Origin: Bacteroidales bacterium | Lineage (GTDB): Bacteria > Bacteroidota > Bacteroidia > Bacteroidales > UBA932 | NCBI GenBank assembly: GCA_024401825.1 | Contig: JAKSKF010000010.1 | Location: 1-47,646, forward strand | DNA length: 47,646 nucleotides | Reading direction: 5' to 3' | Made by a program: the position numbers and the translations under genes | Part shown: positions 32,982-45,698 of the stretch, in pieces | How the letters are laid out: every line of letters starts with the position of its first letter | How positions within the stretch are numbered: position 1 is the first letter of the stretch | The notes under the pieces: model-generated | What the model was told of the DNA's origin: nothing | The model's input: the letters and a program-made list of their open reading frames with translations, nothing else | Database searches by the model: none

Positions 32982-34283
32982 TCACCGCCTTTTGTTCCAG
33001 TCGGCGGCTTCCTCCATCAGGACGGCAATCCTGTCATTGCAGAGGTTGCCGATGCTTCCCGGGTGGGTATGATGGATTTCACCTTCAAAATGAAAAGCGC
33101 CCCGGTTGACCTCCTGCCCCACCTGTCTGTAGGCGTCGCGGAAGGGAACGCCTTCAAGGACTCTCCGGTTGACTTCCTCCACGGTGAACAGATGCCTGTA
33201 CAGCGGATTTTCAAGAATGTTCCCGTTGATTTGAATGTAGTCGAGCATATAGGAGCTTATGTCCAGACAGCTGTGCATAAGTTCCAGGGTGGGGAAAAGA
33301 ATGTCTTTCAGAAGCTGGTAGTCGCGGTGGTATCCGTGCGGCATATTGCTGCACAGCAGGGAAATTTCATTCTCCGCCGCCATAATGCGGTTGCACTTCC
33401 CGCGAACCATCTCCCACACGTCCGGATTTTTCTTGTGGGGCATTATGCTGGAGCCCGTGGTGAGGGCGTCGGGAAACTTGATGAAACCGAAGTTGGGACA
33501 CATATACTGGCAGCAGTCAGATGCGAATTTGTTGAGCGTCAACGCTATGCATCCCATCGCCGCCGCTGTGCACATTTCTGCCTTGCCTCTGCTCATCTGC
33601 GCCGCGATACTGTTGTAGTCCAGTGACGGAAAACCCAGGATTCCGGCGGTCATTTCCCTGTCCAGGGGAAAAGAGTTTCCGTAGCCTGCGGCAGAGCCCA
33701 GCGGGTTGCGGTTGACCACCCGGTACGCCGCGTGAAGCATATACATATCGTTCACCAGGGACTCCGCATAGGCTCCGAACCACAGTCCGAACGATGACGG
33801 CATCGCCGGCTGGGCGTGGGTGTAGCCCGGCATAAGGATGTCCTTGTTCCGCTCGCTCAGACTCTGGAGCTTGCCGAACAGTTCCAGAATCTGCTTCCGC
33901 AGGCAGAGAATCTCGTCCCGGAGGAAGAGCTTGATGTCAAGGAGCACCTGGTCGTTGCGGGACCTTCCTGAATGAATCTTCTTCCCGACCTCTCCCAATT
34001 CCGCGCAAAGAAGGAACTCAATCTGCGAGTGAATGTCCTCCACCCCCTCGTCCAGGGTAAAGTTCCCTTTCCCGATGTCGTCCAGTATCCGGTCCAGCGC
34101 AGCCGTCAGGGTTTCCAGTTCCTCCTTGCTCAGAAGTCCGATGGACTCGAGCATCCTTATGTGCGCCTTTGAACCCGTGACGTCGTATTTGGCGAGCTTG
34201 AGGTCCAGTTCGCGGTCATTCCCGACTGTGAATTTCTCCACTTCTTCAGTGCAGGCCGTTCCTTTGTTCCAGAGTGTTGACAT
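32982..34283 (-). CDS. argH: Argininosuccinate lyase
   Basis: 433 residues. Last step of arginine synthesis, splitting argininosuccinate to arginine and fumarate. Signature GSSIMPHKKNPDVWE lies at about 280-294, with HSGRSRNDQVLLDIKLFLRD, PGYTHAQPAMPSSFGLW and GNSFPLDRE as further family motifs. The start (ATGTCAACACTCTGG) lies within the 3' end of argE, giving a 38-base overlap. It is the last gene of the arginine operon. Confidence 0.95.
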   Translation of the reverse strand: MSTLWNKGTACTEEVEKFTVGNDRELDLKLAKYDVTGSKAHIRMLESIGLLSKEELETLTAALDRILDDIGKGNFTLDEGVEDIHSQIEFLLCAELGEVGKKIHSGRSRNDQVLLDIKLFLRDEILCLRKQILELFGKLQSLSERNKDILMPGYTHAQPAMPSSFGLWFGAYAESLVNDMYMLHAAYRVVNRNPLGSAAGYGNSFPLDREMTAGILGFPSLDYNSIAAQMSRGKAEMCTAAAMGCIALTLNKFASDCCQYMCPNFGFIKFPDALTTGSSIMPHKKNPDVWEMVRGKCNRIMAAENEISLLCSNMPHGYHRDYQLLKDILFPTLELMHSCLDISSYMLDYIQINGNILENPLYRHLFTVEEVNRRVLEGVPFRDAYRQVGQEVNRGAFHFEGEIHHTHPGSIGNLCNDRIAVLMEEAADWNKRR

Positions 34284-35352
34284 TGCAGAAAGTTTCTATG
34301 AAAGTTATGTATTTGTCTATGGCTTCCCCGATTTCGGAAACCAGGATGTATTCATCTGCCCGGTGCGAACGGGAGGATTCTCCCGGCCCCATCTTTATGG
34401 CGTCGCGTCCGGTACGCATCCAGTTCGAAGAGGTGGGGGAGCAGAATGTCCGTATGCCCAGTTCCTCCACCGTTTTCAGCAGGGGAGAGTCTGTACGGGT
34501 GGCGGACGCCCTGTTCCTGAGGTTCCTGGGGACAAGGGAACTCCTGCACAGCCCGGAAAGCATTTCCAGAATTTCGCCGGGTTCGTACTGTTCGGTGAAT
34601 CTCACGTCCACCGTGAAATGGCATTCCCCGGGTATGACATTATGAGCGGAACCCGCATTTATCTGTGTGACATTCAATGCGGTCTGTCCCATAACGGGAG
34701 ATATCCTGTCGAATCTGAAGTCCCGCAGTTTCTGTATGTCATCCAATGCGATGTACAGCGCGTTCACTCCCTCTGACCTCGCCGCGTGCCCGCTTTTGCC
34801 CTGAGCGGTTCCGTCGAGTACCAGGAGTCCGCGCTCGCCGACAGCGGCGTCCATCCCGGTAGGCTCTCCCACGATGACCCAGGACGCGTTTCTTGTCTCT
34901 TCCGGTCCGGTGTCTCCGTACAGGGCCGAGGCTCCCGAAGGTCCGGATTTCTCCTCTTCGGAACTCAGGGCCAGAATCAGGTTTATCGGAAGATTCCTGC
35001 TGTCCAGGGCTCTGAACGCAGCCGCGAGCGACACTACGCTTCCTCCGTCGTCATTGCTGCCCAACCCGAATATTACGGAAGGGTCATCCCCGGAATCGAA
35101 GGGGTCCCCGGTGTATCCGGAGGAGGGGGCCACAGTGTCGATGTGGGCGTCGAGCACCAGCGATGGCTTGGATGCGCAGTAGTTCCTGCACTTGCAGACA
35201 ATGTTGTTTCCGTATCTGGCCGGAGCCAGCCCCCAACCTTTCAGACTGTGAAAAAGCAGGGAGGCGACTTCCTCTTCCTGAAACGATTCGGAAGGTACGG
35301 CCACCATTCCGCGCAGGAGCGCGACGGCATCGTTCAAAAGAAAGTCCATCAT
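34246..35352 (-). CDS. argE: M20 family N-acylornithine deacylase
   Basis: 368 residues from ATG 35352, or 367 from the adjacent ATG 35349. Metal ligands are in VLDAHIDTVAPS (about 72-83) and GLGSNDDGGSVVSL; the catalytic Glu is in LSSEEEKSGPSGAS. ArgE/DapE/CPG2-type metallopeptidases in this context remove the acyl group to give ornithine or, after the Bacteroidota transcarbamylase, citrulline. Because the pathway here uses N-succinylornithine, the substrate is probably N-succinylcitrulline. Its ATG overlaps the argB stop and its end overlaps argH. Confidence 0.9.
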   Translation of the reverse strand: MMDFLLNDAVALLRGMVAVPSESFQEEEVASLLFHSLKGWGLAPARYGNNIVCKCRNYCASKPSLVLDAHIDTVAPSSGYTGDPFDSGDDPSVIFGLGSNDDGGSVVSLAAAFRALDSRNLPINLILALSSEEEKSGPSGASALYGDTGPEETRNASWVIVGEPTGMDAAVGERGLLVLDGTAQGKSGHAARSEGVNALYIALDDIQKLRDFRFDRISPVMGQTALNVTQINAGSAHNVIPGECHFTVDVRFTEQYEPGEILEMLSGLCRSSLVPRNLRNRASATRTDSPLLKTVEELGIRTFCSPTSSNWMRTGRDAIKMGPGESSRSHRADEYILVSEIGEAIDKYITFIETFCNVNTLEQRNGLH

Positions 35353-36119
35353 ACAATCAAGGTTCCTCCAGGCCTTCCCAGACCTTCGGCATCTGTTATT
35401 CTCACGCATTCGACACCTGCTTCCAGGGCCTTGAACGCGTTGTCCAACTTTGGAATCATCCCTTCGGAAACGGCGCCCGATTCAAGAAGCCCGGCATAAT
35501 CCTCTCTGCTCAGGGAGGAAATCACAGAATCGGGGTTGCCGGCGTCCAGAAGAACTCCCTTCTTCTCGAAGCAGAAGGTCAGACTGACGTCGAATGCCTG
35601 ACAGAGCGCCCCGGCCACGGCGGTGGCCACGGTGTCGGCGTTGGTGTTGAGCAGACCTCCCTTGCCGTCGTGGGTTATCGGACAGATGACAGGGACGGCC
35701 CCGGAGTCCAGCACGCGGGACAGGGCCCCGGCGTTCACTTCACTTATGTCGCCCACAAAACCGTAGTCCACTGGCTCGGATGGCCTCCTTTGACTGAGGA
35801 TTATATTGAAATCGGCTCCGCACAGACCTGCGGCATCGATTCCTCTGGCCTGCAGCTTCGCCACTATGTTCTTGTTGACTAGCCCTGCATAAACCATCGT
35901 GACCACCTTCAAGGTGTCGGCATCGGTAATCCTGCGTCCGTTCAGCATCCTGCTCCGGATTCCGAGTCCGGAAGCGAGCCTGGTGGCCGTCCTTCCTCCG
36001 CCGTGGACAAGAATCTTATGACCCGGCAACTCGCGGAAACTGTCGAGCAGCCTGCCGAGCGCAAGTTCGTCTTCCACGACCTGCCCTCCCGCCTTCACTA
36101 TGTTCAAGGGCTCTCTCAT
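35349..36119 (-). CDS. argB: N-acylglutamate kinase (acetylglutamate kinase family)
   Basis: 256 residues from ATG 36119, the only start that gives MREPLNIVKAGGQVVED at the N-terminus; the longer frame runs into argF'. Amino acid kinase motifs: HKILVHGGGRTATRLASGLG (about 33-52), GLVNKNIVAKLQ, NTNADTVATAVAGAL and GGTLIV at the end. Phosphorylates N-acetyl- or, here more likely, N-succinylglutamate. The gly-rich start is KAGGQV where relatives have K.GG..i. Overlaps argF' and argE by 4 bases. Confidence 0.94.
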   Translation of the reverse strand: MREPLNIVKAGGQVVEDELALGRLLDSFRELPGHKILVHGGGRTATRLASGLGIRSRMLNGRRITDADTLKVVTMVYAGLVNKNIVAKLQARGIDAAGLCGADFNIILSQRRPSEPVDYGFVGDISEVNAGALSRVLDSGAVPVICPITHDGKGGLLNTNADTVATAVAGALCQAFDVSLTFCFEKKGVLLDAGNPDSVISSLSREDYAGLLESGAVSEGMIPKLDNAFKALEAGVECVRITDAEGLGRPGGTLIV

Positions 36120-37084
36120 TTCAGCATATCCTCCAGCATCCTCTTCATCACCACCTGCGCGGACACAACCCTGTTTGCGGCCTCGGGAATCACCAGCGAC
36201 CTGTCCGAATCTATCACTGAATCGCTGACTATCATATTCCTCCTGACCGGAAGACAATGCAGAAAATATGCATTGTCAGTCACCGCCATATGCGCGTCGT
36301 CTATGGTCCACCCCATATCCTTGCTCAGTATCTGTCCGTAGGCCGAAGGGTCTTTCACTCCGGGACAGCTCCAGTTCTTGGCATATACGAAGTCCGCGCC
36401 TTCCAGGGCCTTCATCTGGTCATATTCAACCCTTGCGTTCCCGGCAAAGCGGGGGTCGAGTTCGTATCCCTCGGGATGTGTGATGACAAAGTCCACGTCG
36501 GCGGCGTTCATCCATTGGGCGAAGGAATTGGGTACCGCCTGGGGCAGGGCTTTGGGGTGAGGAGCCCAGCTCATCACAACCTTGGGCCGGCTTTTTTTCT
36601 TGTACTCGTTTATTGTTATGAGGTCTGCGAAGGCCTGGCAGGGATGCACCGTGGCGGATTCGAGACTGATTACGGGCTTGCCGCCGTATTGTATGAACTC
36701 TCTGAGCACCGTCTCGCCATAGTCGTATTCCCTGTCGGTCAGAGCGGCGAAGGAACGGATGCCCAGGATGTCGCAGTAGCTGGCCATCACCGGTATCGCC
36801 TCGCGGAGATGCTCGCTTTTGTCCCCGTCCATTACGACTCCCATCCTGGTCTCAAGTTTCCAGCTGTCCTGCCCGATGTTCAGGACGATGGGGTTCATCC
36901 CCAGGTTCAGGGCGGCTTTCTGGCTGCTCAGCCGTGTTCTCAGGCTGCTGTTGAAGAACACCAGCATAATGGTCTTGTCCGTGCCGAGATGTTTCCAGGC
37001 AAACGGGGTCTTCTTGACCTGGGCGGCCTCCTGCAAGGCGAGATTCAGGTCTCCTATGTCTTCTACGTTGAAAAAAGTCTTCAT
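36116..37084 (-). CDS. argF': N-succinylornithine carbamoyltransferase
   Basis: 322 residues. Carbamoyl-phosphate site FFNSSLRTRLSSQKAA (about 48-63) followed by NLGMNPIVLNIGQDSWKLE, and the later HPKALPQAVPNSFAQWMNAA plus HPEGYELDP. These features match the Bacteroides fragilis-type transcarbamylase, which uses N-succinyl-L-ornithine and not ornithine. Classical OTCases have STRTR and a different 80s and SMG loop. So arginine is made through succinylated intermediates. Overlaps argD and argB by 4 bases each. Confidence 0.93.
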   Translation of the reverse strand: MKTFFNVEDIGDLNLALQEAAQVKKTPFAWKHLGTDKTIMLVFFNSSLRTRLSSQKAALNLGMNPIVLNIGQDSWKLETRMGVVMDGDKSEHLREAIPVMASYCDILGIRSFAALTDREYDYGETVLREFIQYGGKPVISLESATVHPCQAFADLITINEYKKKSRPKVVMSWAPHPKALPQAVPNSFAQWMNAADVDFVITHPEGYELDPRFAGNARVEYDQMKALEGADFVYAKNWSCPGVKDPSAYGQILSKDMGWTIDDAHMAVTDNAYFLHCLPVRRNMIVSDSVIDSDRSLVIPEAANRVVSAQVVMKRMLEDMLK

Positions 37085-38208
37085 TTCTCCAATATTTCCC
37101 TCAGGGCCGTCCCGAATATGTCAGCCTGCGCCTCCGTCAGGCACAGGGGAGCGAGCAGGCGTATCATATTCTTGCCTGAAACTCCGGTGAATATGTGTTT
37201 TCCATACAGCAGTTCGCTGCGGATGGGGGCGACTTCAGTGTTGAACTCGATGCCCGTCATCAGGCCCAGCCCCCTGACTTCCTTGATATGAGGGTGTGAT
37301 GTTATTACTTTGCGTAAGTGCCCGCCGACTTTCAGCGCGTTTTCGATGAGGTTCTCGTCCCTGATTATGTCGAGAACTGCAATGGCGGCGGCCATTGCCA
37401 GGTAGTTGCCTCCGAAGGTGGTTCCGAGCATCCCCTTCGCCGCCTTGAATTCCGGTGAAATGAGCACACCTCCGCAGGGGAAACCGTTGGCGATGCCCTT
37501 TCCCATAGTGATGAGGTCCGGCTTTATGCCGTACCATTGGTGGGCAAAGAACTTCCCGCTCCGTCCGTATCCGCTCTGGACTTCGTCCAGTATGAGAACG
37601 GCGCCGTATCTGCGGCACAGGGCGCTCAGCTCCTGCATGAAGGATGTTTCCGGGATGTTGATTCCTCCGCAACCCTGGATGCCTTCTATGATGACTCCGG
37701 CTACGTCTCCCTTTTTCAGGATGTCCTCAACCTGCTGCGCGTCATTCAAATCACAGAATGATACCTTGTGGTTTGCGTTGAACGGCGATACTATGGAGGG
37801 ATTGTCCGTCACGGAAACGGCGCCGGACGTGCGTCCGTGGAAGCTTTTGCGGAACGCTACGATTCTGTCCCTTCCAGTGTGGAAAGATGCCAGTTTCAGG
37901 GCGTTCTCGTTGGATTCCGCGCCGCTGTTGTCGAGGAAGAGCGAGTATTCCGGGTATCCTCCCATCTCGCCAAGCCTGTCGGCAAGTTCCTGCTGGAGAG
38001 GGTTCTGCACGCTGTTGGAATAGAATCCTATTTTCCCCAACTGCTCGGAAACGGCCTTGACATAGCGGGGATGCGAGTGTCCTATGGAGATTACGGCGTG
38101 TCCTCCGTAGAGGTCCAGATATTCATTGCCCTTGTCGTCCCATACGCGGCAGCCGCTGGCTTTCTGCGGAGTCACGTCGAATAGGGAATATACGTCGAAT
38201 AATGTCAT
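37081..38208 (-). CDS. argD: Acetyl/succinylornithine aminotransferase
   Basis: 375 residues, PLP-dependent class III aminotransferase. GHAVISIGHSHPRYV, FLDNSGAESNENALKLA, RKSFHGRTSGAVSVT, the PLP-ring Asp in VLILDEVQSGYGRSGKFFAH, and the PLP Lys in DLITMGKGIANGFP. It transaminates the acylglutamate semialdehyde to the acylornithine. 12-base gap to argC and overlap with argF'. Confidence 0.95.
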   Translation of the reverse strand: MTLFDVYSLFDVTPQKASGCRVWDDKGNEYLDLYGGHAVISIGHSHPRYVKAVSEQLGKIGFYSNSVQNPLQQELADRLGEMGGYPEYSLFLDNSGAESNENALKLASFHTGRDRIVAFRKSFHGRTSGAVSVTDNPSIVSPFNANHKVSFCDLNDAQQVEDILKKGDVAGVIIEGIQGCGGINIPETSFMQELSALCRRYGAVLILDEVQSGYGRSGKFFAHQWYGIKPDLITMGKGIANGFPCGGVLISPEFKAAKGMLGTTFGGNYLAMAAAIAVLDIIRDENLIENALKVGGHLRKVITSHPHIKEVRGLGLMTGIEFNTEVAPIRSELLYGKHIFTGVSGKNMIRLLAPLCLTEAQADIFGTALREILEK

Positions 38209-38220
38209 TTTCTATGATTT

Positions 38221-39195
38221 TTAGAATGCGGATGCCTTGAACTTCAGTCCTGTGCTCTGGTCAAGTCCGAAAATCAGGTTCATATTCTGCACGGCTTGTC
38301 CTGACGCACCCTTCAAAAGGTTGTCGATAACGGAAGTAATTACAACGGTATCCTGATGCTTTTCAATATGTAAAACACATTTGTTTGTATTTGTGACCTG
38401 CTTCAGGTCCACAGGAAGTTCAGAGACGAAAGTAAATGCCGCACCTTGGAAATATTCCCTGAAAATTCTGATGATTTCCTGTTCCGGCAGTTCGCACCGG
38501 GTATGGAGAGACGCAAAAATTCCGCGGGGAAAATCACCTCTGACAGGGACGAAATTTATGCGAGGGACAGTTGGTCCCTGAATGAGGGAAAGGTTTCTCT
38601 TTATCTCTATAAGGTGTTGATGCTCAAATACTTTATATGATGAAACATTATTGTTTCTCCAACTGAAATGGGAGGTCTCGGAGAGCTTTGCCCCGGCACC
38701 TGTCGAACCTGTAATGGCGGTCACCTGCACTTCGTCCTTCAGAAGTCCTGCGTCAGAGAGCGGAAGCAGCGCCAGTTGTATGGCAGTGGCGAAGCATCCG
38801 GGGTTGGCCACCGACTGCGCGTTGAGAAGGGCTCCCGGGTCAGACTTGAGTTTCCACTCGGGGAGGCCGTAAACATAGCCGTTGCTCTCGTCCCTGAAGT
38901 CCTGGGCGAGGTCTATCACTTTCAGGTGCTCCGGCCTTTGCCTGCCCTGCCAGAATTCAGAACTCCTGCCGTGCGCTCCGCACAGGAAGAGAACGTCGAT
39001 GTCTTCAAGTTCATATTCGCTGCAGAAATGCAGCCCGGTGTCTCCTATCAAGCCTTCGTGAACCTCATAGAGAGCCTTGCCGGAATTGCTCTGCGAGTGG
39101 GCGAATGCAATTTCGGCTTCGGGATGGTTCACCAGAATCCGAATCAGTTCCCCTGCGGTGTATCCCGCGGCTCCTACTATCCCGACCTTAATCAT
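38221..39195 (-). CDS. argC: N-acyl-gamma-glutamyl-phosphate reductase
   Basis: 324 residues. NADP-binding VGIVGAAGYTAGELIRIL at the N-terminus and the catalytic Cys in SVANPGCFATAIQLAL (about 128-143), with GSTGAGAKLSETSHFSWR. It reduces the acylglutamyl phosphate to the semialdehyde. The start overlaps argG by 8 bases. Normal length for the short (type 1) ArgC group. Confidence 0.95.
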   Translation of the reverse strand: MIKVGIVGAAGYTAGELIRILVNHPEAEIAFAHSQSNSGKALYEVHEGLIGDTGLHFCSEYELEDIDVLFLCGAHGRSSEFWQGRQRPEHLKVIDLAQDFRDESNGYVYGLPEWKLKSDPGALLNAQSVANPGCFATAIQLALLPLSDAGLLKDEVQVTAITGSTGAGAKLSETSHFSWRNNNVSSYKVFEHQHLIEIKRNLSLIQGPTVPRINFVPVRGDFPRGIFASLHTRCELPEQEIIRIFREYFQGAAFTFVSELPVDLKQVTNTNKCVLHIEKHQDTVVITSVIDNLLKGASGQAVQNMNLIFGLDQSTGLKFKASAF

Positions 39196-40393
39196 TGTCC
39201 AGTTCCTCCGGGTGTGCGAGGTAGTATGCGCGGAGCGGGTTGGACGAAATCTTTATGAAACCCTTCGCCTCCTGCGAAGTCCATCCTTTGGCGCCTTCTC
39301 CGTACTCTCCGAGCTTGTTCTTGACGAGGTCATCGGGAGAATCGACTCCTACCATGGAAAAGCCGTAGGGCCTGAGTTCCACCGTAACTTCGCCGTTGAC
39401 GTTGCGCTGGCTGCTGGTCAGCATCTCTTCCATATCTCTCATCACCGGCTCCTGGTACTGGCTTTCGTGCAGGAACATTCCGTACCAGGTCGAAATCTGG
39501 TCCTTCCAGTACTGCTGCCACTTGCTCAGGGTGAACTTCTCCAGAAACTTGTGCGCGGCGATTATGACCATAGGCGCCGCGGCCTCGAATCCCACGCGCC
39601 CCTTGATGCCTATCATCGTGTCTCCCACGTGCATGTCGCGTCCTATTCCGTAGGCGGATGCTATCTTCTCGACCTCGCGTATGGCCTCGACCTTGTCGTC
39701 GAACTTCCTGCCGTTCACGGAGTCAAGCTCGCCTTTGCGGAATCCCAGCACCAGTTTCTCGCCGCCGGTCCTGCTGACCTGTTTCAGATAGGCGCTTTCA
39801 GGCAACCCCTGCTTTGAGTCCAGTATTTCCCCTCCGCAGATGGACGTTCCCCAGAGGCCTACGTTGTAGGAATATTTCAGTTTTGCGAAATCAGCCTTGA
39901 ATCCGTGCGAGTTGAGGTAATCTGTTTCTTCCTTCCTGCTCAGGTTCCGGTCCCTTGTCAGGGTGATGATTTCCATTTCGGGACACATCACAAGGAAGGT
40001 CATATCGAATCTTATCTGGTCGTTTCCGGCTCCCGTCGAGCCGTGCGCTATGGCGGAAGCGCCTATGCTCTTGGCATAACGGGCTATGGCGATGCCCTGG
40101 AAAATGCGTTCGGAAGATACGGATATGGGGTAGGTTCCGTTTCTGAGCACATTTCCGAAAACCATATATTTCAGGCTCTTTTCATAGTATTCCCCGGCAA
40201 CGTCAAGGGTGACGTAGCTGAACGCTCCCAACTTGTAGGCGTTCTCCTCGTTTGCCTTCAGCTGTTCGGGACTGAAACCTCCGGTGTCGGCGCAGGCCGC
40301 ATATACTTCGTAGCCCATCTCTTTCGAGAGGTACATCACCGTGTATGAGGTGTCCAGTCCTCCGCTGAATGCCACTACAACTTTCTTCTTCAT
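39188..40393 (-). CDS. argG: Argininosuccinate synthase
   Basis: 401 residues. ATP-grasp-like PP-loop AFSGGLDTSYTVMYL (residues 8-22) and AHGSTGAGNDQIRFD (about 117-131), then GEILDSKQGLPESAY. It joins citrulline and aspartate with ATP. Second gene of the arginine operon, 3 bases after the ArgR fusion gene. It would also allow citrulline made by the nearby deiminase homologue to be returned to arginine, if that protein is active and citrulline is imported. Confidence 0.95.
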   Translation of the reverse strand: MKKKVVVAFSGGLDTSYTVMYLSKEMGYEVYAACADTGGFSPEQLKANEENAYKLGAFSYVTLDVAGEYYEKSLKYMVFGNVLRNGTYPISVSSERIFQGIAIARYAKSIGASAIAHGSTGAGNDQIRFDMTFLVMCPEMEIITLTRDRNLSRKEETDYLNSHGFKADFAKLKYSYNVGLWGTSICGGEILDSKQGLPESAYLKQVSRTGGEKLVLGFRKGELDSVNGRKFDDKVEAIREVEKIASAYGIGRDMHVGDTMIGIKGRVGFEAAAPMVIIAAHKFLEKFTLSKWQQYWKDQISTWYGMFLHESQYQEPVMRDMEEMLTSSQRNVNGEVTVELRPYGFSMVGVDSPDDLVKNKLGEYGEGAKGWTSQEAKGFIKISSNPLRAYYLAHPEELDND

Positions 40394-40396
40394 AAA

Positions 40397-41371
40397 CTAT
40401 TTTTCATTTGAATCGTACAACAGTCCCGTGCAGATGCAGGCTTTGTAGTCGTGGTTCTTGAGAATCTCAAAGTGACGGCATCCCTCGCAGCCTTTCCAGA
40501 ATTCCGGGTCGTCCGTGAGTTCGCTGTACGGGACAGGCCTGAACCCCAGCTGATAGTTCATCTTCATCACGGCCGCTCCTGTGGTGATGGAGAAAATCTT
40601 GGCGTTGGGGTACAGGGTGCGGGAAAGACTGAAGGTCATTTCCTTGATGCGTTTGGATATTCCCCGGCCGCGGAACTTGTGGGCCACTATCAGTCCGGAA
40701 TTCGCCACGAAGCTCTTGTGTCCCCAGGACTCGATATAGGAGAATCCCGCAAATTCCCCCTTGTCGTCCACGGCTATGACCGCTTTGCCGGCCAGTATCT
40801 TTTCCGAAATGTATTCCGGGGTCCTGTTGGCTATTCCTGTCTTGCGTTCAAGGGATGAGACATATATCTCCCGGCAGATTTCCTCGGCATACACGGTGTC
40901 TTCCGCGGTGGCTACCCTGACGACTATTTCAGAGATGCGGAACATAGAGTGTATGGTGTCGGAGATGTAGTTCTTGTCTGCGGTCTGGTGGAGCATAAGC
41001 AGGATGGTGTCATCCCCGGCTATCGTTCCCATCACGCCTTTTATGGAGGCGCCGTCTATCAGTGAACTTATGACGGAGGCGAATGCGGGCTTGCAGTGAA
41101 GGACGCACATCTGGCCGGAGATGTCGAAGTCGTCTATGCTTATTTGGCTGCTCTGCTTCTGAGCCTCTTCGCTCGGAAGAGCATAGACCAGACCTTCTAC
41201 AGGGTCGGACACTTTGAACGCGCCCATCTCCTTGGTGTCCCGGGAAAGAGTCGCCTGGGTGGTTGTCACTCCTTTGAGTTCCAATAATTTGACCAATTCC
41301 TCCTGATTGTGGACCTTCTGGGTCCGTATTATCTCGGCAATCAGGTTTTTTCTGTTAGTTTTCTCGTTCAT
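40397..41371 (-). CDS. ArgR repressor fused to GNAT N-acylglutamate synthase-like domain
   Basis: 324 residues in one unbroken frame. Residues about 1-70 are the ArgR winged helix (TTTQATLSRDTKEMGAFKV). Residues about 80-150 are its arginine-binding oligomerisation domain with GTIAGDDTIL at 115-124. Residues about 151-324 are a GNAT acyltransferase (VRVATAEDTVYAEEIC, GLIVAHKFRGRGISKRIKE). They resemble the Bacteroides protein next to argG that makes N-acylglutamate. The tail has Cys at 295, 298, 312 and 314, a possible metal site. In Bacteroides, as I recall, these are two separate adjacent genes. First gene of the operon; no other argA or argJ is present, so this should be the pathway's entry enzyme and its regulator. 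Confidence 0.9.
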   Translation of the reverse strand: MNEKTNRKNLIAEIIRTQKVHNQEELVKLLELKGVTTTQATLSRDTKEMGAFKVSDPVEGLVYALPSEEAQKQSSQISIDDFDISGQMCVLHCKPAFASVISSLIDGASIKGVMGTIAGDDTILLMLHQTADKNYISDTIHSMFRISEIVVRVATAEDTVYAEEICREIYVSSLERKTGIANRTPEYISEKILAGKAVIAVDDKGEFAGFSYIESWGHKSFVANSGLIVAHKFRGRGISKRIKEMTFSLSRTLYPNAKIFSITTGAAVMKMNYQLGFRPVPYSELTDDPEFWKGCEGCRHFEILKNHDYKACICTGLLYDSNEK

Positions 41372-41375
41372 AACC

Positions 41376-41393
41376 TACGAATAATATGCAAAG
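41376..41393. promoter_or_regulatory. ARG-box-like operator 1
   Basis: TACGAATAATATGCAAAG resembles the ARG box TNTGAATWWWWATTCANW, with one A/T fewer in the middle. It covers the predicted -7 element and transcription start of the arginine operon. Confidence 0.5.
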
Positions 41394-41420
41394 GTATGAA
41401 TAAATATGCAAATACGCAAA
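41389..41420 (-). promoter_or_regulatory. Promoter of the arginine operon
   Basis: Minus strand: TTTG at 41420-41417, 20 bases, TACCTTTG at 41396-41389. Good fit to TTTG-N19-TAnnTTTG. The ATG follows 17 bases later at 41371. Both ARG-box-like sites overlap this promoter, the geometry of a repressor. Confidence 0.65.
41395..41412. promoter_or_regulatory. ARG-box-like operator 2
   Basis: TATGAATAAATATGCAAA matches the ARG box consensus TNTGAATWWWWATTCANW at all but one position (G for T in ATTCA). It lies in the -33/-7 spacer of the arginine operon promoter, one base from box 1. Tandem boxes are the usual target of hexameric ArgR. Confidence 0.6.
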
Positions 41421-41486: not shown

Positions 41487-42767
41487 ATGAAGAGGTTGTT
41501 GTCTGAATCCGTTATGACAAGAGCGACTGTGGGCCGCGCTCTGGCGGCGATGTCGTTCCTTTCGGTTCTGTTCTCCTGCGTATCCCCGGTTGATAAGAGG
41601 ACCGCATCTTCCCCGTCCTCCGAATGGGCTCCGGCTGCGGCCGTCCTTGTCCATACGCCCGGAGAGGAACTGTTTGACGGAGTGGTTCATCCCGCCGCCG
41701 GCTTGTTCGAAAGTTATTTCAACGTTGACAGCGCCGCCATCGAACACCGTAATTTTATAAAAAAGCTTGAGAGCAAAGGCATCAGGGTTTACCGGCTTAT
41801 GGATGTTCTAAGGCAGATGGATATGGAGAAATTGAGGGAACTGGCGTCCGCGACTTTGATTTATGACGCGTCTGACGTGGCCGATTCCCTGTCCTTCGGA
41901 GAAAATTACAGGCTCGAGACCCTTTCCGTGATGTCAAGGGAGGACCTTATCAGAGTGCTTCTCTTCCAGCCCAAGGTGATTCTGCACGGTACCGACAACA
42001 ATACCGGAGTAGAGGCCGATTATTTGCACCGCCCCCTTACGAACCTTTACTTCCTGAGGGACCAGAGCATCTCGACTCCCCGCGGTCAGGTCATTTGCAA
42101 GATGAATTCCTACCAGCGCAGTCCGGAAACCAGGATAATCAAGGCCTGTTACGAACAACTCGGAATCGCTCCCGTCTTTGAAGTGACCGGGGACGGCAGG
42201 ATTGAGGGCGGAGATTACCTCCCCGCGGGGACGGTTTCATTCATCGGGTGCGGTATGAGAACGAATATGGAGGCCATCAGGCAGATGATGGAGGCCGACG
42301 TTTTCGGACACGATACCGTAATAGTGGTCAACGACCATCTGAGGTGGCAGATGGAAATGCACCTGGCCACCCATTTCAACATCATTGACAAAGACCTCTG
42401 CACTATGCCGCTCAGCAGGATGGAAGCAAAGGAGGGGGACCCGGAATACTGCACGGCGGACATTTATGTCAGGGAAGAAGGGCAGAAGGAATACTCCCTC
42501 TACAGGGAGAACGTCGGTTTTGTCCAGACCGTGAAGTCAATGGGGTACAAGATAATCCCTATCTGCCGCACTGACGAACTCCATTACGCAAACAATTACC
42601 TCACCATAGCTCCCCGCCACATCATAGCAGTGAAGGGCCAGTCTGAACAATACAGGAAGGCGCTCGAGGAAAATGGCGTCACTGTGGAATGGCTCCCTCT
42701 GGAGAATCTGATAGACGGCTACGGCGCGGCGCATTGTATGACCCAGGTCATCGCAAGATACCGGTAG
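41487..42767 (+). CDS. Lipoprotein arginine deiminase homologue with altered active site
   Basis: 426 residues. The N-terminus has a lipoprotein signal with lipobox LFSC and Cys31 (ATG 41514 would also work). The rest is an arginine deiminase-type guanidino-modifying fold: NLYFLRDQS (Asp192), RIEGGDYL (Glu240), WQMEMHLATHF (His292) and GYGAAHCMTQ (nucleophile Cys417). Deiminases normally have His-Leu-Asp-Thr at the His motif; here residue 294 is Ala (codon GCC, 42366-42368), replacing an Asp that binds the substrate guanidinium. So activity or specificity may be changed. The location is the outer or periplasmic side of a membrane. Divergent from the arginine operon. Confidence 0.82.
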   Translation: MKRLLSESVMTRATVGRALAAMSFLSVLFSCVSPVDKRTASSPSSEWAPAAAVLVHTPGEELFDGVVHPAAGLFESYFNVDSAAIEHRNFIKKLESKGIRVYRLMDVLRQMDMEKLRELASATLIYDASDVADSLSFGENYRLETLSVMSREDLIRVLLFQPKVILHGTDNNTGVEADYLHRPLTNLYFLRDQSISTPRGQVICKMNSYQRSPETRIIKACYEQLGIAPVFEVTGDGRIEGGDYLPAGTVSFIGCGMRTNMEAIRQMMEADVFGHDTVIVVNDHLRWQMEMHLATHFNIIDKDLCTMPLSRMEAKEGDPEYCTADIYVREEGQKEYSLYRENVGFVQTVKSMGYKIIPICRTDELHYANNYLTIAPRHIIAVKGQSEQYRKALEENGVTVEWLPLENLIDGYGAAHCMTQVIARYR

Positions 42768-42797
42768 CGCCCGCATCAAAAAAGTTTGCGGAGCAGT

Positions 42798-44903
42798 ATG
42801 AGAATTCTTTTGAAATTGCTTGCAGCCGCGCTGTGCGCGGCGGGGTGCTCGTCTTTGGAAAGCGCCCCGGAACTCTCCGCGCTTCTTGACAGGGTGGGCG
42901 GCGAAGGCGCGTCCGGAAGGATTGTGGCCGTCGTGAACCCCGGATTGTCCTCTGATGGCGAAGAGGTGTTCGTGATAGACAGGAAAGGAGGAAAGCCTTA
43001 TGTGGAGGGCAGTTCCCTTTCTGCGGCTTCGGCCGGCATCGGCTGGTATCTTAACCATTATGCCGGCATAAATCTACACTGGAACTGCCTGACGACGGAC
43101 CTTGCCGATGTTGAACTTCCCCTTCCGGATAAGCCTGAGCGGAGGAAAACTTCCGCAGGGATGCGCTATTACCTGAACTACTGCACCTTTTCCTACACTA
43201 TGGCTTTCTGGGATTGGGACCGCTGGGAGAAAGAGATTGACTGGATGGCCCTCCGTGGCATCAATATGCCGCTTGTGATTGTAGGGGTGGATTGTGTCTG
43301 GAAAAATATTCTCGGGGAACTGGGGTACGACAAGGAAGAAATCAACGGTTTCGTGGCGGGTCCGGGCTTTCAGGCCTGGTGGCTTATGGGAAATCTGCAG
43401 GGCTGGGGCGGCCCTAATCCTGACTGGTGGTACGAACGCGAGGAGCGGCTTGCCGGCAGGATTCTCTCACGGATGCGCTCGCTGGGAATGGAGCCTGTGC
43501 TTCCCGGCTACGGAGGAATGCTGCCTGGCAATGCAAAGGAAAAACTGGGATGGGAGACCGTCTGCCAGGGGAAATGGTTCGGCTTTGAAAGACCCGCCTT
43601 CCAACTGCCTTCCTCCCCGGATTTCAGACGGATGTCGGAACTGTACTACAGGCATCTCGACTCCGTTATGGGAAAGTCGAAGTTCTACAGTATGGACCTG
43701 TTTCACGAAGGAAACCTTCCGGAGGATACGGACATAGGGGAGTGTTACAGGATTGTGGATGAGGCCCTGCAGGCTTCCGAACCCGGTGCGGGGTGGGTTA
43801 TCCAGGCCTGGGGTTCGAATCCTTGCGCTCAGGCGCTGTCCTCTGTTCCCCGGGGTGATTTCATTGTGCTCGACCTGTTTTCTGACGGAAACCCCCGTTG
43901 GATGAACCATAATTTTCAGGGGCACGACTGGGTTTTCTGTATGCTTCACAACTTTGGCGGAAGGACAGGTATTCACGGGCGCCTTGAAAGTATGACCGGG
44001 CAGTATTTCAACGCCTGTCACAAGGAACCGGAAAGCCTGAAGGGCGTAGGAATCACCGCCGAAGGAATCGAAACCAATCCTGTTTTGTACGATGCCCTGA
44101 TGGAACTTCCCTGGATGGACGAGAGCGAGTGCGACGGATGGCTTGCCCGTTGGGTGAAAGCCCGCTACGGAGTGGAAAATGACAATCTGCTGGAAGGGTG
44201 GCGGAAGATAGCCTCTTCCGCCCTGGACTGTCGGACAGGGCAGCAGGGGACAAGCGAGCCGATAGTCTGCGCCCGTCCCTCCCTTGAGGTCGACCGGGTT
44301 TCGACCTGGGGTACGAGCGCGCTGTATTATGACCCCTCGGAACTGGAAGAAGCCCTGGCCTGTCTGGAGGCGGGCGCCGGTTCGGTCCGTTCTGAAGTCG
44401 GGCTTTCCAATTACCGCTATGACTGCGCGGACCTCAGACGGCAGGTGCTCAGCAATGCCTGCATACCTCTTCTTGCACAGGTCAAGGCCGCCTATGACAA
44501 AGGAGATATGGACAGGTACGAGAGTTTGTACAACGAATTCCTGGATGACCTGCTTGCGCTGGACACTCTTCTTGCATCCGAACCTCAGATGACGTACGAC
44601 TACCACGCCGCAATGGCGGAAGCGGTTTGTGACGAGGTGGAAGGCGCCACTGAATCAGACCGTGAGTGGATGTTGCGGAACCTGCGGACACAAATTACGG
44701 TATGGGGACCGGAGACTGCCGCCTCGCTGGGGCTTCGGGACTACTCCAACCGTGAATGGAGCGGAATGCTCCGAAACTACTGCCATCCCCGATGGAAGAG
44801 ATTCTTCGAATGTCTGCGGGACGGACGTCCCGTTCCGTCCGGTCACGAATGGTTTGAAATGGAAAACGGGGGAGCCCCCGGAAATTATAAAGATTACAAA
44901 TAG
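42798..44903 (+). CDS. Alpha-N-acetylglucosaminidase (GH89), lipoprotein
   Basis: 701 residues from ATG 42798 (a TTG at 42786 is in frame). Lipoprotein signal MRILLKLLAAALCAAGC with the Cys at 17. Family GH89 features: RYYLNYCTFSYTMAFWDWDR, WEKEIDWMALRGINMPL, WWLMGNLQGWGGPNPDWW, MDLFHEGNLPE (a catalytic Glu region) and GITAEGIETNPVLYDALMEL with the second Glu. It removes terminal alpha-GlcNAc, as in gastric mucin or heparan-type glycans. The C-terminal third is helical as in human NAGLU. Phospholipase gene follows with no gap (stop and ATG adjacent). Confidence 0.93.
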   Translation: MRILLKLLAAALCAAGCSSLESAPELSALLDRVGGEGASGRIVAVVNPGLSSDGEEVFVIDRKGGKPYVEGSSLSAASAGIGWYLNHYAGINLHWNCLTTDLADVELPLPDKPERRKTSAGMRYYLNYCTFSYTMAFWDWDRWEKEIDWMALRGINMPLVIVGVDCVWKNILGELGYDKEEINGFVAGPGFQAWWLMGNLQGWGGPNPDWWYEREERLAGRILSRMRSLGMEPVLPGYGGMLPGNAKEKLGWETVCQGKWFGFERPAFQLPSSPDFRRMSELYYRHLDSVMGKSKFYSMDLFHEGNLPEDTDIGECYRIVDEALQASEPGAGWVIQAWGSNPCAQALSSVPRGDFIVLDLFSDGNPRWMNHNFQGHDWVFCMLHNFGGRTGIHGRLESMTGQYFNACHKEPESLKGVGITAEGIETNPVLYDALMELPWMDESECDGWLARWVKARYGVENDNLLEGWRKIASSALDCRTGQQGTSEPIVCARPSLEVDRVSTWGTSALYYDPSELEEALACLEAGAGSVRSEVGLSNYRYDCADLRRQVLSNACIPLLAQVKAAYDKGDMDRYESLYNEFLDDLLALDTLLASEPQMTYDYHAAMAEAVCDEVEGATESDREWMLRNLRTQITVWGPETAASLGLRDYSNREWSGMLRNYCHPRWKRFFECLRDGRPVPSGHEWFEMENGGAPGNYKDYK

Positions 44904-45698
44904 ATGAAACGTTTCATTTGCGCTGTATTGTGTGCTCTGGCATTTTCCTGTGCCTCAATTCCTTCTTTGGCCCAAACAGGCTTGGAGGGATTCCGCTCCA
45001 TATATTTCGTTTCCGGAATACCGGTGGACGGAACTCCGGTCAACAGCACGTCCGCGGACGTGAAGTTTCAGGTCAGCTTTGCCGTGCCGATTTTCAGCAA
45101 TATGGGGGACATAGAGGGTCTGGATATGAAGCTGGCTTATACGCACAAAGCCGTATGGCTTCTCTACGCACCTTCAAGCCCGTTCAAAGACAATACCTTC
45201 ATTCCCGGGCTCTACTTGACTGTTCCTTTGAAACTGAAGGGAAGCAATCTGCTGTGCGGTATCGAACACCGTTCCAACGGCCGAGACGATGAACTTTCAC
45301 GTTCCGTCAATTATATCTTTGGAGAATATTCGCACTCCTTTCCTTTCGGACTCACCTTATGCGCCAATGCCAGAGTTGGTTTCGGTTGGTACGACAATCT
45401 GCTGACCCAGGACATATTCAGCAAATTTTATGGCTACGCTACGCTGGGGGCGATGTATGAATACAAACGTCTTTCAGTCCTGGTCAGTATGACTCCGTCT
45501 TTCGCGCCTTTTCATCTGGGGCATACGGTCGAACTGGCCTTCAGACCTTGGAAAAGCCACCTGTACCATCTGTTCGTGCAGTATCATCACGGCTATGACG
45601 AATGCTTTTCGGATTGCGTATATGGCAACAATCCCGGCTATAACATCCGTTTCGGCATACTCATCACTCCTTCCGGAGCAAGGCGGCTCAGCCGATAA
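44904..45698 (+). CDS. Outer membrane phospholipase A (OMPLA/PldA family)
   Basis: 264 residues with a signal peptide (MKRFICAVLCALAFSCASIP, cut near LAQ). The mature protein is rich in aromatic beta strands. The decisive motif is EHRSNGRDDELSRSVNYIF: His122, Ser124 and Asn136 have the exact spacing of the E. coli OMPLA triad (142, 144, 156), and SNGR and SRS-x-N are conserved. It should hydrolyse phospholipids at the outer membrane, active as a calcium-dependent dimer. The last gene of the deiminase-GH89-phospholipase run, ATG directly after the GH89 stop. Confidence 0.85.
   Translation: MKRFICAVLCALAFSCASIPSLAQTGLEGFRSIYFVSGIPVDGTPVNSTSADVKFQVSFAVPIFSNMGDIEGLDMKLAYTHKAVWLLYAPSSPFKDNTFIPGLYLTVPLKLKGSNLLCGIEHRSNGRDDELSRSVNYIFGEYSHSFPFGLTLCANARVGFGWYDNLLTQDIFSKFYGYATLGAMYEYKRLSVLVSMTPSFAPFHLGHTVELAFRPWKSHLYHLFVQYHHGYDECFSDCVYGNNPGYNIRFGILITPSGARRLSR

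Follow-up and report, generated by a model that had tools for sequence, protein, structure and literature searches.

An arginine repressor joined in one reading frame to a predicted N-acylglutamate synthase at the head of a Bacteroidales arginine operon

ArgR is among the best-studied of the bacterial repressors. In some uncultured Bacteroidales of the gut it shares one polypeptide with an enzyme predicted to commit the cell to arginine synthesis, the pathway under its expected control, and this union probably came about independently in two lineages. In the reading we prefer, to which we give a probability of about 0.72, one polypeptide would be both a self-repressing arginine repressor and the first enzyme of arginine synthesis, fused by a frame change probably at least twice.

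The window, i.e. the whole stretch of 47,646 nucleotides analysed (Bacteroidales assembly GCA_024401825.1, contig JAKSKF010000010.1), carries on the minus strand the fused argR-argA2 gene (40397..41371), a single open reading frame of 324 codons with an ATG start and no stop throughout, whose architecture recurs in other genomes. The ArgR half has a winged-helix DNA-binding domain (41165..41365, minus strand; Pfam PF01316 Arg_repressor, residues 3-69, 70.1 bits against a cut-off of 27) with the motif QATLSR at residues 39-44, and a C-terminal arginine-binding and oligomerisation domain containing GTIAGDDTIL (40952..41131, minus strand; PF02863 Arg_repressor_C, residues 81-140, 54.3 bits against a cut-off of 25). 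The solved ArgR chain 1b4a aligns to this half up to residue 148 of its 149, so the repressor is not truncated. It scores 110 bits with the NCBIfam equivalog TIGR01529 and does not reach the cut-off of 130.45; we read a half that falls under this annotation threshold as a divergent member of the family. The junction lies at about residues 144-147 (40931..40942, minus strand) in the alignment of 18 distinct fused proteins, without a separate linker domain, the GNAT part starting some four residues past the end of ArgR.

The GNAT half (40400..40930, minus strand), a predicted N-acyl- and probably N-succinyl-glutamate synthase of the ArgA2-like type, is placed by homology, by its gene neighbourhood and by a weak Pfam GNAT match. 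The match to Acetyltransf_7 is 19.3 bits, under the cut-off of 27, and the completeness of the domain therefore rests on the homology to ArgA2-like genes: stand-alone GNAT genes among loci L041-L139 are 77-83% identical to the GNAT half of the window, and those of 29 loci from the order 48-69%. By Pfam the enzyme half is GNAT alone, without a kinase-fold domain. The continuous frame with a full ArgR, claimed in the original prediction, is thus borne out, and its full GNAT domain is upheld by homology but not by Pfam.

The fused gene is the first of a tightly packed and apparently complete arginine operon on the minus strand. It is followed after a gap of 3 bp by the argininosuccinate synthase gene argG (39188..40393; PF00764 and PF20979 over cut-off), by argC (38221..39195; TIGR01850 over cut-off), an argD-like aminotransferase gene (37081..38208; PF00202, below the argD cut-off), a carbamoyltransferase gene (36116..37084), argB (35349..36257 as the longest open reading frame, the true start being probably further in; TIGR00761 over cut-off), an M20 hydrolase gene (34246..35409; PF01546, PF07687), probably an N-acylcitrulline deacylase by inference of its role, and argH (32982..34283; TIGR00838 over cut-off). 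A GNAT gene beside argG in the arginine operon, here 3 bp before it and followed further on by argC and argD, is the gene context of the ArgA2 type.

The carbamoyltransferase is probably an N-succinylornithine carbamoyltransferase (SOTCase, argF3 type), since it scores 502 bits to the Bacteroides fragilis SOTCase 1js1, against up to 184 bits for the chains of the Xanthomonas campestris N-acetylornithine enzyme (AOTCase). At the three positions described as separating AOTCase from SOTCase (Glu92, Asn185 and Lys302 versus A/S/P/V/Q, P and V/I/E; PMC4581275) it carries S, P and I in alignments read by eye. Of the succinyl-anchoring residues H176, R178 and R278 given in the same source it keeps two, with Lys replacing R178, and it also passes the NCBIfam N-acetylornithine carbamoyltransferase model NF003384 (294.5, cut-off 288). 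The arginine pathway of the window therefore probably runs through succinylated intermediates, without this being certain, and the GNAT half would probably be an N-succinylglutamate synthase.

ArgA2 is the name given by comparative genomics to the GNAT gene of Bacteroidetes arginine operons (PMC9026213). Its counterpart in Bacteroides thetaiotaomicron, the separate gene BT3761, is assigned to arginine synthesis by fitness data, is described as probably an N-succinylglutamate synthase, and bears a locus number adjacent to that of the argG candidate BT3760 (PMC7311316). Cabys_1732, more than 50% identical to BT3761 (PMC7311316), is described elsewhere as a NAGS that has been characterised, with unpublished work as the source (PMC5317091). 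Likened to BT3761 by its place in the operon and by these descriptions, the GNAT half is predicted to be of the ArgA2 type; the resemblance to a Bacteroides N-acylglutamate synthase noted beforehand from the letters alone is supported, since this GNAT type has been published as the enzyme predicted to catalyse the first step in Bacteroidota, with its gene in the arginine operon (PMC7311316, PMC9026213).

Other candidates for the two functions were sought in the fused genomes. A search of the window's genome (1.475 Mb, 52 contigs, 89% complete) with the fused protein gave a single match, the one ArgA2-like gene, and a single ArgR was found there. Each of the 16 fused genomes searched (G575 and G604 being outside the set) has a single ArgR copy, no second ArgR being found in this set, and ArgJ (PF01960) was found in 0 of 16. 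Classical ArgA (TIGR01890) reached its cut-off in 0 of 18; below the cut-off the model matched in 16 of 18, the match in the window's own genome being the argB locus, and G507 has two weak matches (about 21 bits) to the GNAT end of the model elsewhere in its genome. The co-occurrence typical of ArgA2 is thereby found, with SOTCase present and ArgA and ArgJ not found, for a carbamoyltransferase that also passes the N-acetylornithine model. A separate NAGS elsewhere, which would have spoken against the original prediction, did not appear as ArgJ, as classical ArgA or as a second ArgA2-like gene; this part of the claim stands for a genome 89% complete, with ArgO and the short and Corynebacterium-type NAGS outside the search.

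The ArgR+GNAT architecture proved to be recurrent when looked for across Bacteroidales. The best 80 of 420 confirmed candidates, which are the named loci, comprise 10 fused loci (L031-L040), 3 in which argR directly precedes the GNAT gene but in a different frame (L044, L047, L090), 15 with a stand-alone GNAT gene and a nearby argR running the other way (L065, L067, L072, L073, L081-L084, L089, L092, L094, L096, L098, L105, L110), and 52 with no ArgR in the fetched flank. Within the genus 283 of 400 genomes give a match and at least 18 of the 400, that of the window included, are verified as fused. These comprise 12 genomes of what we call type 1 (again with the window) and 6 of type 2 (G330, G577, G575, G604, G295, G423), a division drawn from sequence identity after the first searches. 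Type-1 proteins are 63-69% identical to that of the window, and the junction of the aligned type-2 proteins is 7 residues longer than that of type 1. One further genome of the genus, G302 (L123; 81% complete), has the GNAT gene and no ArgR was found in it.

Outside the genus no fusion to ArgR was seen among the loci fetched and the matches listed. No fusion was seen in the 29 other loci of the order, from a sample of 295 genomes; argR is a separate same-strand neighbour in 18, which supports the original prediction's picture of two neighbouring but separate genes, and is absent from the fetched flank in 11, one of which (L007) belongs to the same genus as the window. In the phylum sample of 395 genomes no other match among those listed spans both halves free of stops, and ArgR stood beside GNAT in 0 of 13 loci inspected (L168-L175, L207-L211). 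Nine further places in the order where the GNAT match lay in a long open frame (L140-L148) were inspected as suspected fusions and rejected, since in every one a stop divides the two genes; the same is true of L149, taken along for comparison. In a different arrangement the same GNAT is followed, within one protein of about 590 aa, by argininosuccinate synthase (ArgG) joined to its C-terminus (L154:298-2043, L155:2031-3794, L207-L209, L212-L215; both tested, L154 and L155, by Pfam, and the others by reading the translation); the hosts are other species of the genus of the window and three genera of another family in the phylum.

Both halves keep their key residues and evolve under purifying selection. 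In a conservation alignment of 105 rows, QATLSR is invariant in 63/63 ArgR rows, and of the arginine-pocket GDD, G119 and D121 are found in 63/63 and D120 in 62/63. Many core positions of the GNAT part are invariant in 62/62 GNAT rows, as are four cysteines near its end (C295, C298, C312 and C314, CxxC...CxC; 40430..40489, minus strand), possibly a metal site. For fused pairs dN/dS was 0.05-0.15 in the ArgR half (computable in 4 of 8, the rest, including all pairs with the window gene, being saturated) and 0.03-0.09 in the GNAT half (computable in 7 of 8, one being saturated).

Upstream of the fused gene, the stretch 41376-41412, proposed beforehand as a target of the repressor, does hold a candidate operator. 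An ARG-box-like imperfect palindrome (TGAATAAATATGCA / TGCATATTTATTCA, 41397..41410) lies in the gene's own promoter and matches the strict ARG-box consensus TGAATAWWTATTCA in 13/14 positions; a second, imperfect site (TGCATATTATTCG, 41378..41390, minus strand) was read by eye. The first is enclosed by a sequence of the Bacteroidota promoter type, TTTG - 20 nt - TACCTTTG (41389..41420, minus strand; letters checked), in which we take TTTG and TAnnTTTG to be the Bacteroidota promoter elements. In a genome-wide scan for exact matches to the relaxed pattern TGMATAWWTATKCA, which allows A/C and T/G in the arms and was relaxed after the window site was known, the site at 41397-41410 was the only one in the 1.475-Mb genome on both strands, the reversed control giving 0; the chance of an ARG-box match in the window with one mismatch allowed is 0.08. 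Scans for sigma-70 promoters and terminators gave no excess over shuffles.

The same site recurs before most type-1 genes. Against the strict consensus 14 distinct type-1 upstreams score 14/14 in five cases, 13/14 in six (window included) and less in three, and type-2 upstreams at most 11/14. With the relaxed pattern at least 13/14 is reached by 10/13 type-1 upstreams, against shuffle means near 10, the box being weak in the other three (L033, L036, L040; L038 was left out, its upstream being shorter than 60 bases), and by 0/5 type-2 upstreams, all of which score 12, a value attained by 1-5% of shuffles. The promoter pattern TTTG-N17-23-TAnnTTTG is present in 7/13 type-1 and 0/5 type-2 fused upstreams. 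ARG-box-like sites are also found at unfused argR genes, in 19/39 and 8/14 of two classes and in 2/15 of the opposite-strand class, and autoregulation is therefore probably older than the fusion.

The ARG box lies in an intergenic region common to the fused gene and a divergent gene (41487-42767, plus strand), which may be under the same control. The product of this second gene carries an arginine-deiminase domain (PF02274) and what looks by eye like a lipoprotein signal. Beyond it on the plus strand (42786-45698) are an alpha-N-acetylglucosaminidase (NAGLU) gene and then a phospholipase A1-like gene.

From these elements the preferred reading can be spelled out. By homology the arginine-bound ArgR part would form the usual hexamer. 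Binding of this hexamer to the ARG box, which lies in the promoter of the operon itself, would shut down the fused repressor-enzyme together with argG, C, D, F3, B, M20 and H. Without arginine the operon would be expressed, and the same molecule, given the enzymatic activity expected of its homologues, would make the first intermediate of the pathway. What bears this reading is the fusion itself, its recurrence, the intact key residues, the purifying selection and the operator-like site, no second ArgR, ArgJ or classical ArgA having been found in the sets searched.

It is a different matter whether the two halves speak to each other. The strongest rival, to which we concede nearly even odds, is that the fusion is neutral: a chance frame change which left both halves as they were, with no cross-talk beyond a 1:1 stoichiometry. 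It is the preferred explanation minus allostery, and the odds of the two overlap. It draws on the three sister loci in which the genes already overlap or abut, and on the absence of any GNAT residue exclusive to fused proteins in the comparison of 14 fused with 66 unfused rows; four positions differ between the two forms, two of them common to all three overlapping sisters and two to one sister. It also draws on further lineages in which this enzyme has been joined to ArgG, the neighbour on its other side; this fits operon compaction and suggests that compaction alone can join these genes. On the other side stand the maintenance of the fusion across type-1 proteins 63-69% identical to that of the window, the failure to find another ArgR in any of the 16 fused genomes examined for it, and a fusion probably repeated at least twice, none of which excludes neutrality.

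The more ambitious claim of the original prediction was that arginine bound to the ArgR core could also inhibit or recruit the enzyme. That arginine in the core changes the activity of the enzyme we would put at about one chance in three, judging from sequence comparison: for it are the repeated and maintained fusion and an enzyme half without the kinase-fold domain of classical NAGS, against it the lack of fused-exclusive GNAT residues, the unfused close relatives and the parallel ArgG fusion. Many close relatives keep an unfused enzyme, so that the fusion is not needed for catalysis. The full form of the idea, in which the core is the arginine sensor of the committed enzyme, represses the operon and inhibits the GNAT part, and has evolved at least twice in replacement of the kinase-fold domain, is offered tentatively, with the balance leaning against it. 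If it were true, one arginine-binding event would close a two-level feedback loop in a single protein.

In classical NAGS an amino-acid-kinase domain is the allosteric sensor of arginine. By analogy the ArgR core might be mainly such a sensor for the enzyme, with repression secondary, a version that we consider unlikely. It would suit an enzyme half consisting of GNAT alone, the preserved GDD of the arginine pocket and the weaker ARG boxes at type-2 fused genes, but all 18 distinct fused proteins aligned have QATLSR unchanged in the DNA-binding helix, and the relaxed ARG-box pattern finds its single exact match of the genome in the gene's own promoter.

The origin of the fusion was examined with quick trees without bootstrap, for which we rely on approximately unbiased (AU) tests and on starred branches. 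The GNAT tree has 147 rows (L003 was dropped as short), and 76 of these were used in the AU tests, namely the rows that are fused or have a separate argR, a random draw of 14 from the others, and 2 that were picked. A single clade of all 18 fused GNAT rows is rejected (p-AU 3e-38). Type 1 alone (14 GNAT rows, p 0.90) and type 2 alone (4 GNAT rows, p 0.89) are not rejected as clades, the likelihoods of both constrained trees being above that of the free tree, and starred branches of the GNAT tree separate the type-1 clade from the type-2 clade. Among the type-1 rows of this tree are the three overlapping or abutting loci and two loci with argR not nearby (L041, L095). These two have other genes upstream in place of argR, and we read their repressor as lost or relocated.

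The ArgR tree (88 rows) places all 14 type-1 fused rows in a single clade with support 87, a clade of 99* unites type 1 with L044, L047 and L090, and the opposite-strand argR loci form a clade of their own with support 94; type 2 needs two changes on this tree, of which starred branches force one. Because a common clade for every fused enzyme fails the AU test, the fusion probably arose at least twice, two fusions being the simplest reading. The way in which it could have happened is visible in the sisters of type 1: L047 and L090 have overlapping argR and GNAT genes, which share ATGAATGA, in L044 one base separates the argR stop from the next ATG, and in all three the ends of the unfused proteins coincide with the fusion junction. 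Since these ends match the junction, the fusion would be explained by a slight shift of frame at the point where two neighbouring genes overlap or abut. The reverse course, one ancient fusion later split many times, would account for the mixture of fused and unfused forms in the genus; against it are two distant fused clades with junctions of differing length, each amid unfused relatives, and we hold it to be quite improbable.

Equally little credit is given to the alternative that mature ArgR and GNAT are separate, produced from an internal translation start or by proteolysis at the junction. An ATG (Met143) does lie near the junction in the window, and several relatives have one likewise, but L033 has no ATG, GTG or TTG from -45 to +60 bases of the GNAT start, L031 offers a TTG at -21 and no other candidate, and the ATG is missing near the junction in all four type-2 genes examined. 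A start codon common to the fused genes at the junction was sought and none was found; since the start codons there are not conserved, GNAT would not generally be made from an internal start. That the fused frame is an artefact of assembly or sequencing is rejected as having next to no chance, for although every genome behind the named fused loci is metagenome-assembled, the architecture is unbroken in 20 distinct fused proteins (19 and that of the window) from several sets of such genomes, with codon-level purifying selection, and its recurrence in 10 of the best 80 loci, and within the genus in at least 18 genomes out of 400, rules out a local sequencing error.

The preferred reading makes the regulation of the first step directly testable in Bacteroidota that seemingly use succinylated arginine intermediates, and allows one to test whether transcriptional and enzymatic feedback can share one molecule. 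It also carries a warning for annotation: a fused gene labelled as arginine repressor alone would make the first reaction of arginine synthesis seem to be missing when it is not.

With known systems the protein shares its parts. A repressor and a pathway enzyme in one polypeptide are known from NadR, BirA and PutA, whose families and pathways are unrelated to those of the window protein. Solved ArgR/AhrC proteins (1b4a, 1f9n, 3ere) have the same two domains, DNA-binding helix and arginine-pocket motif, and an ARG box in the promoter likely to be regulated; the window protein differs in bearing an enzyme at its C-terminus. In a survey of such regulators ArgR is called 'monolithic', with low architectural diversity, its table giving 22 companion domains among 485 ArgR proteins, and the words acetyltransferase and GNAT are absent from the main text (PMC5882156).

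On the side of the enzyme, ArgA2/BT3761 (PMC7311316, PMC9026213) is likewise a GNAT of the arginine operon which co-occurs with SOTCase where ArgA and ArgJ are not found; as published it is a separate gene, whereas in the window it is the C-terminal half of ArgR, and the adjoining argR of its relatives is taken from the loci of this analysis. Fusions of glutamate acetyltransferases have been published with argH (PMC1382215, PMC4490483) and argC (PMC4490483). ArgH(A) of Moritella and other marine gammaproteobacteria also joins a short glutamate N-acetyltransferase to a protein of the arginine pathway, but the partner there is an enzyme, argininosuccinase, and here a regulator (PMC1382215). In classical NAGS (ArgA; PMC4490483), too, another domain precedes the glutamate N-acetyltransferase, one of kinase fold in that case and a DNA-binding repressor in the window protein. 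In the open-licence full texts searched, supplements being outside, no description of an ArgR-acyltransferase fusion was found. The parts and the principle are thus known, and it is the combination of ArgR with an acyltransferase that appears to be new.
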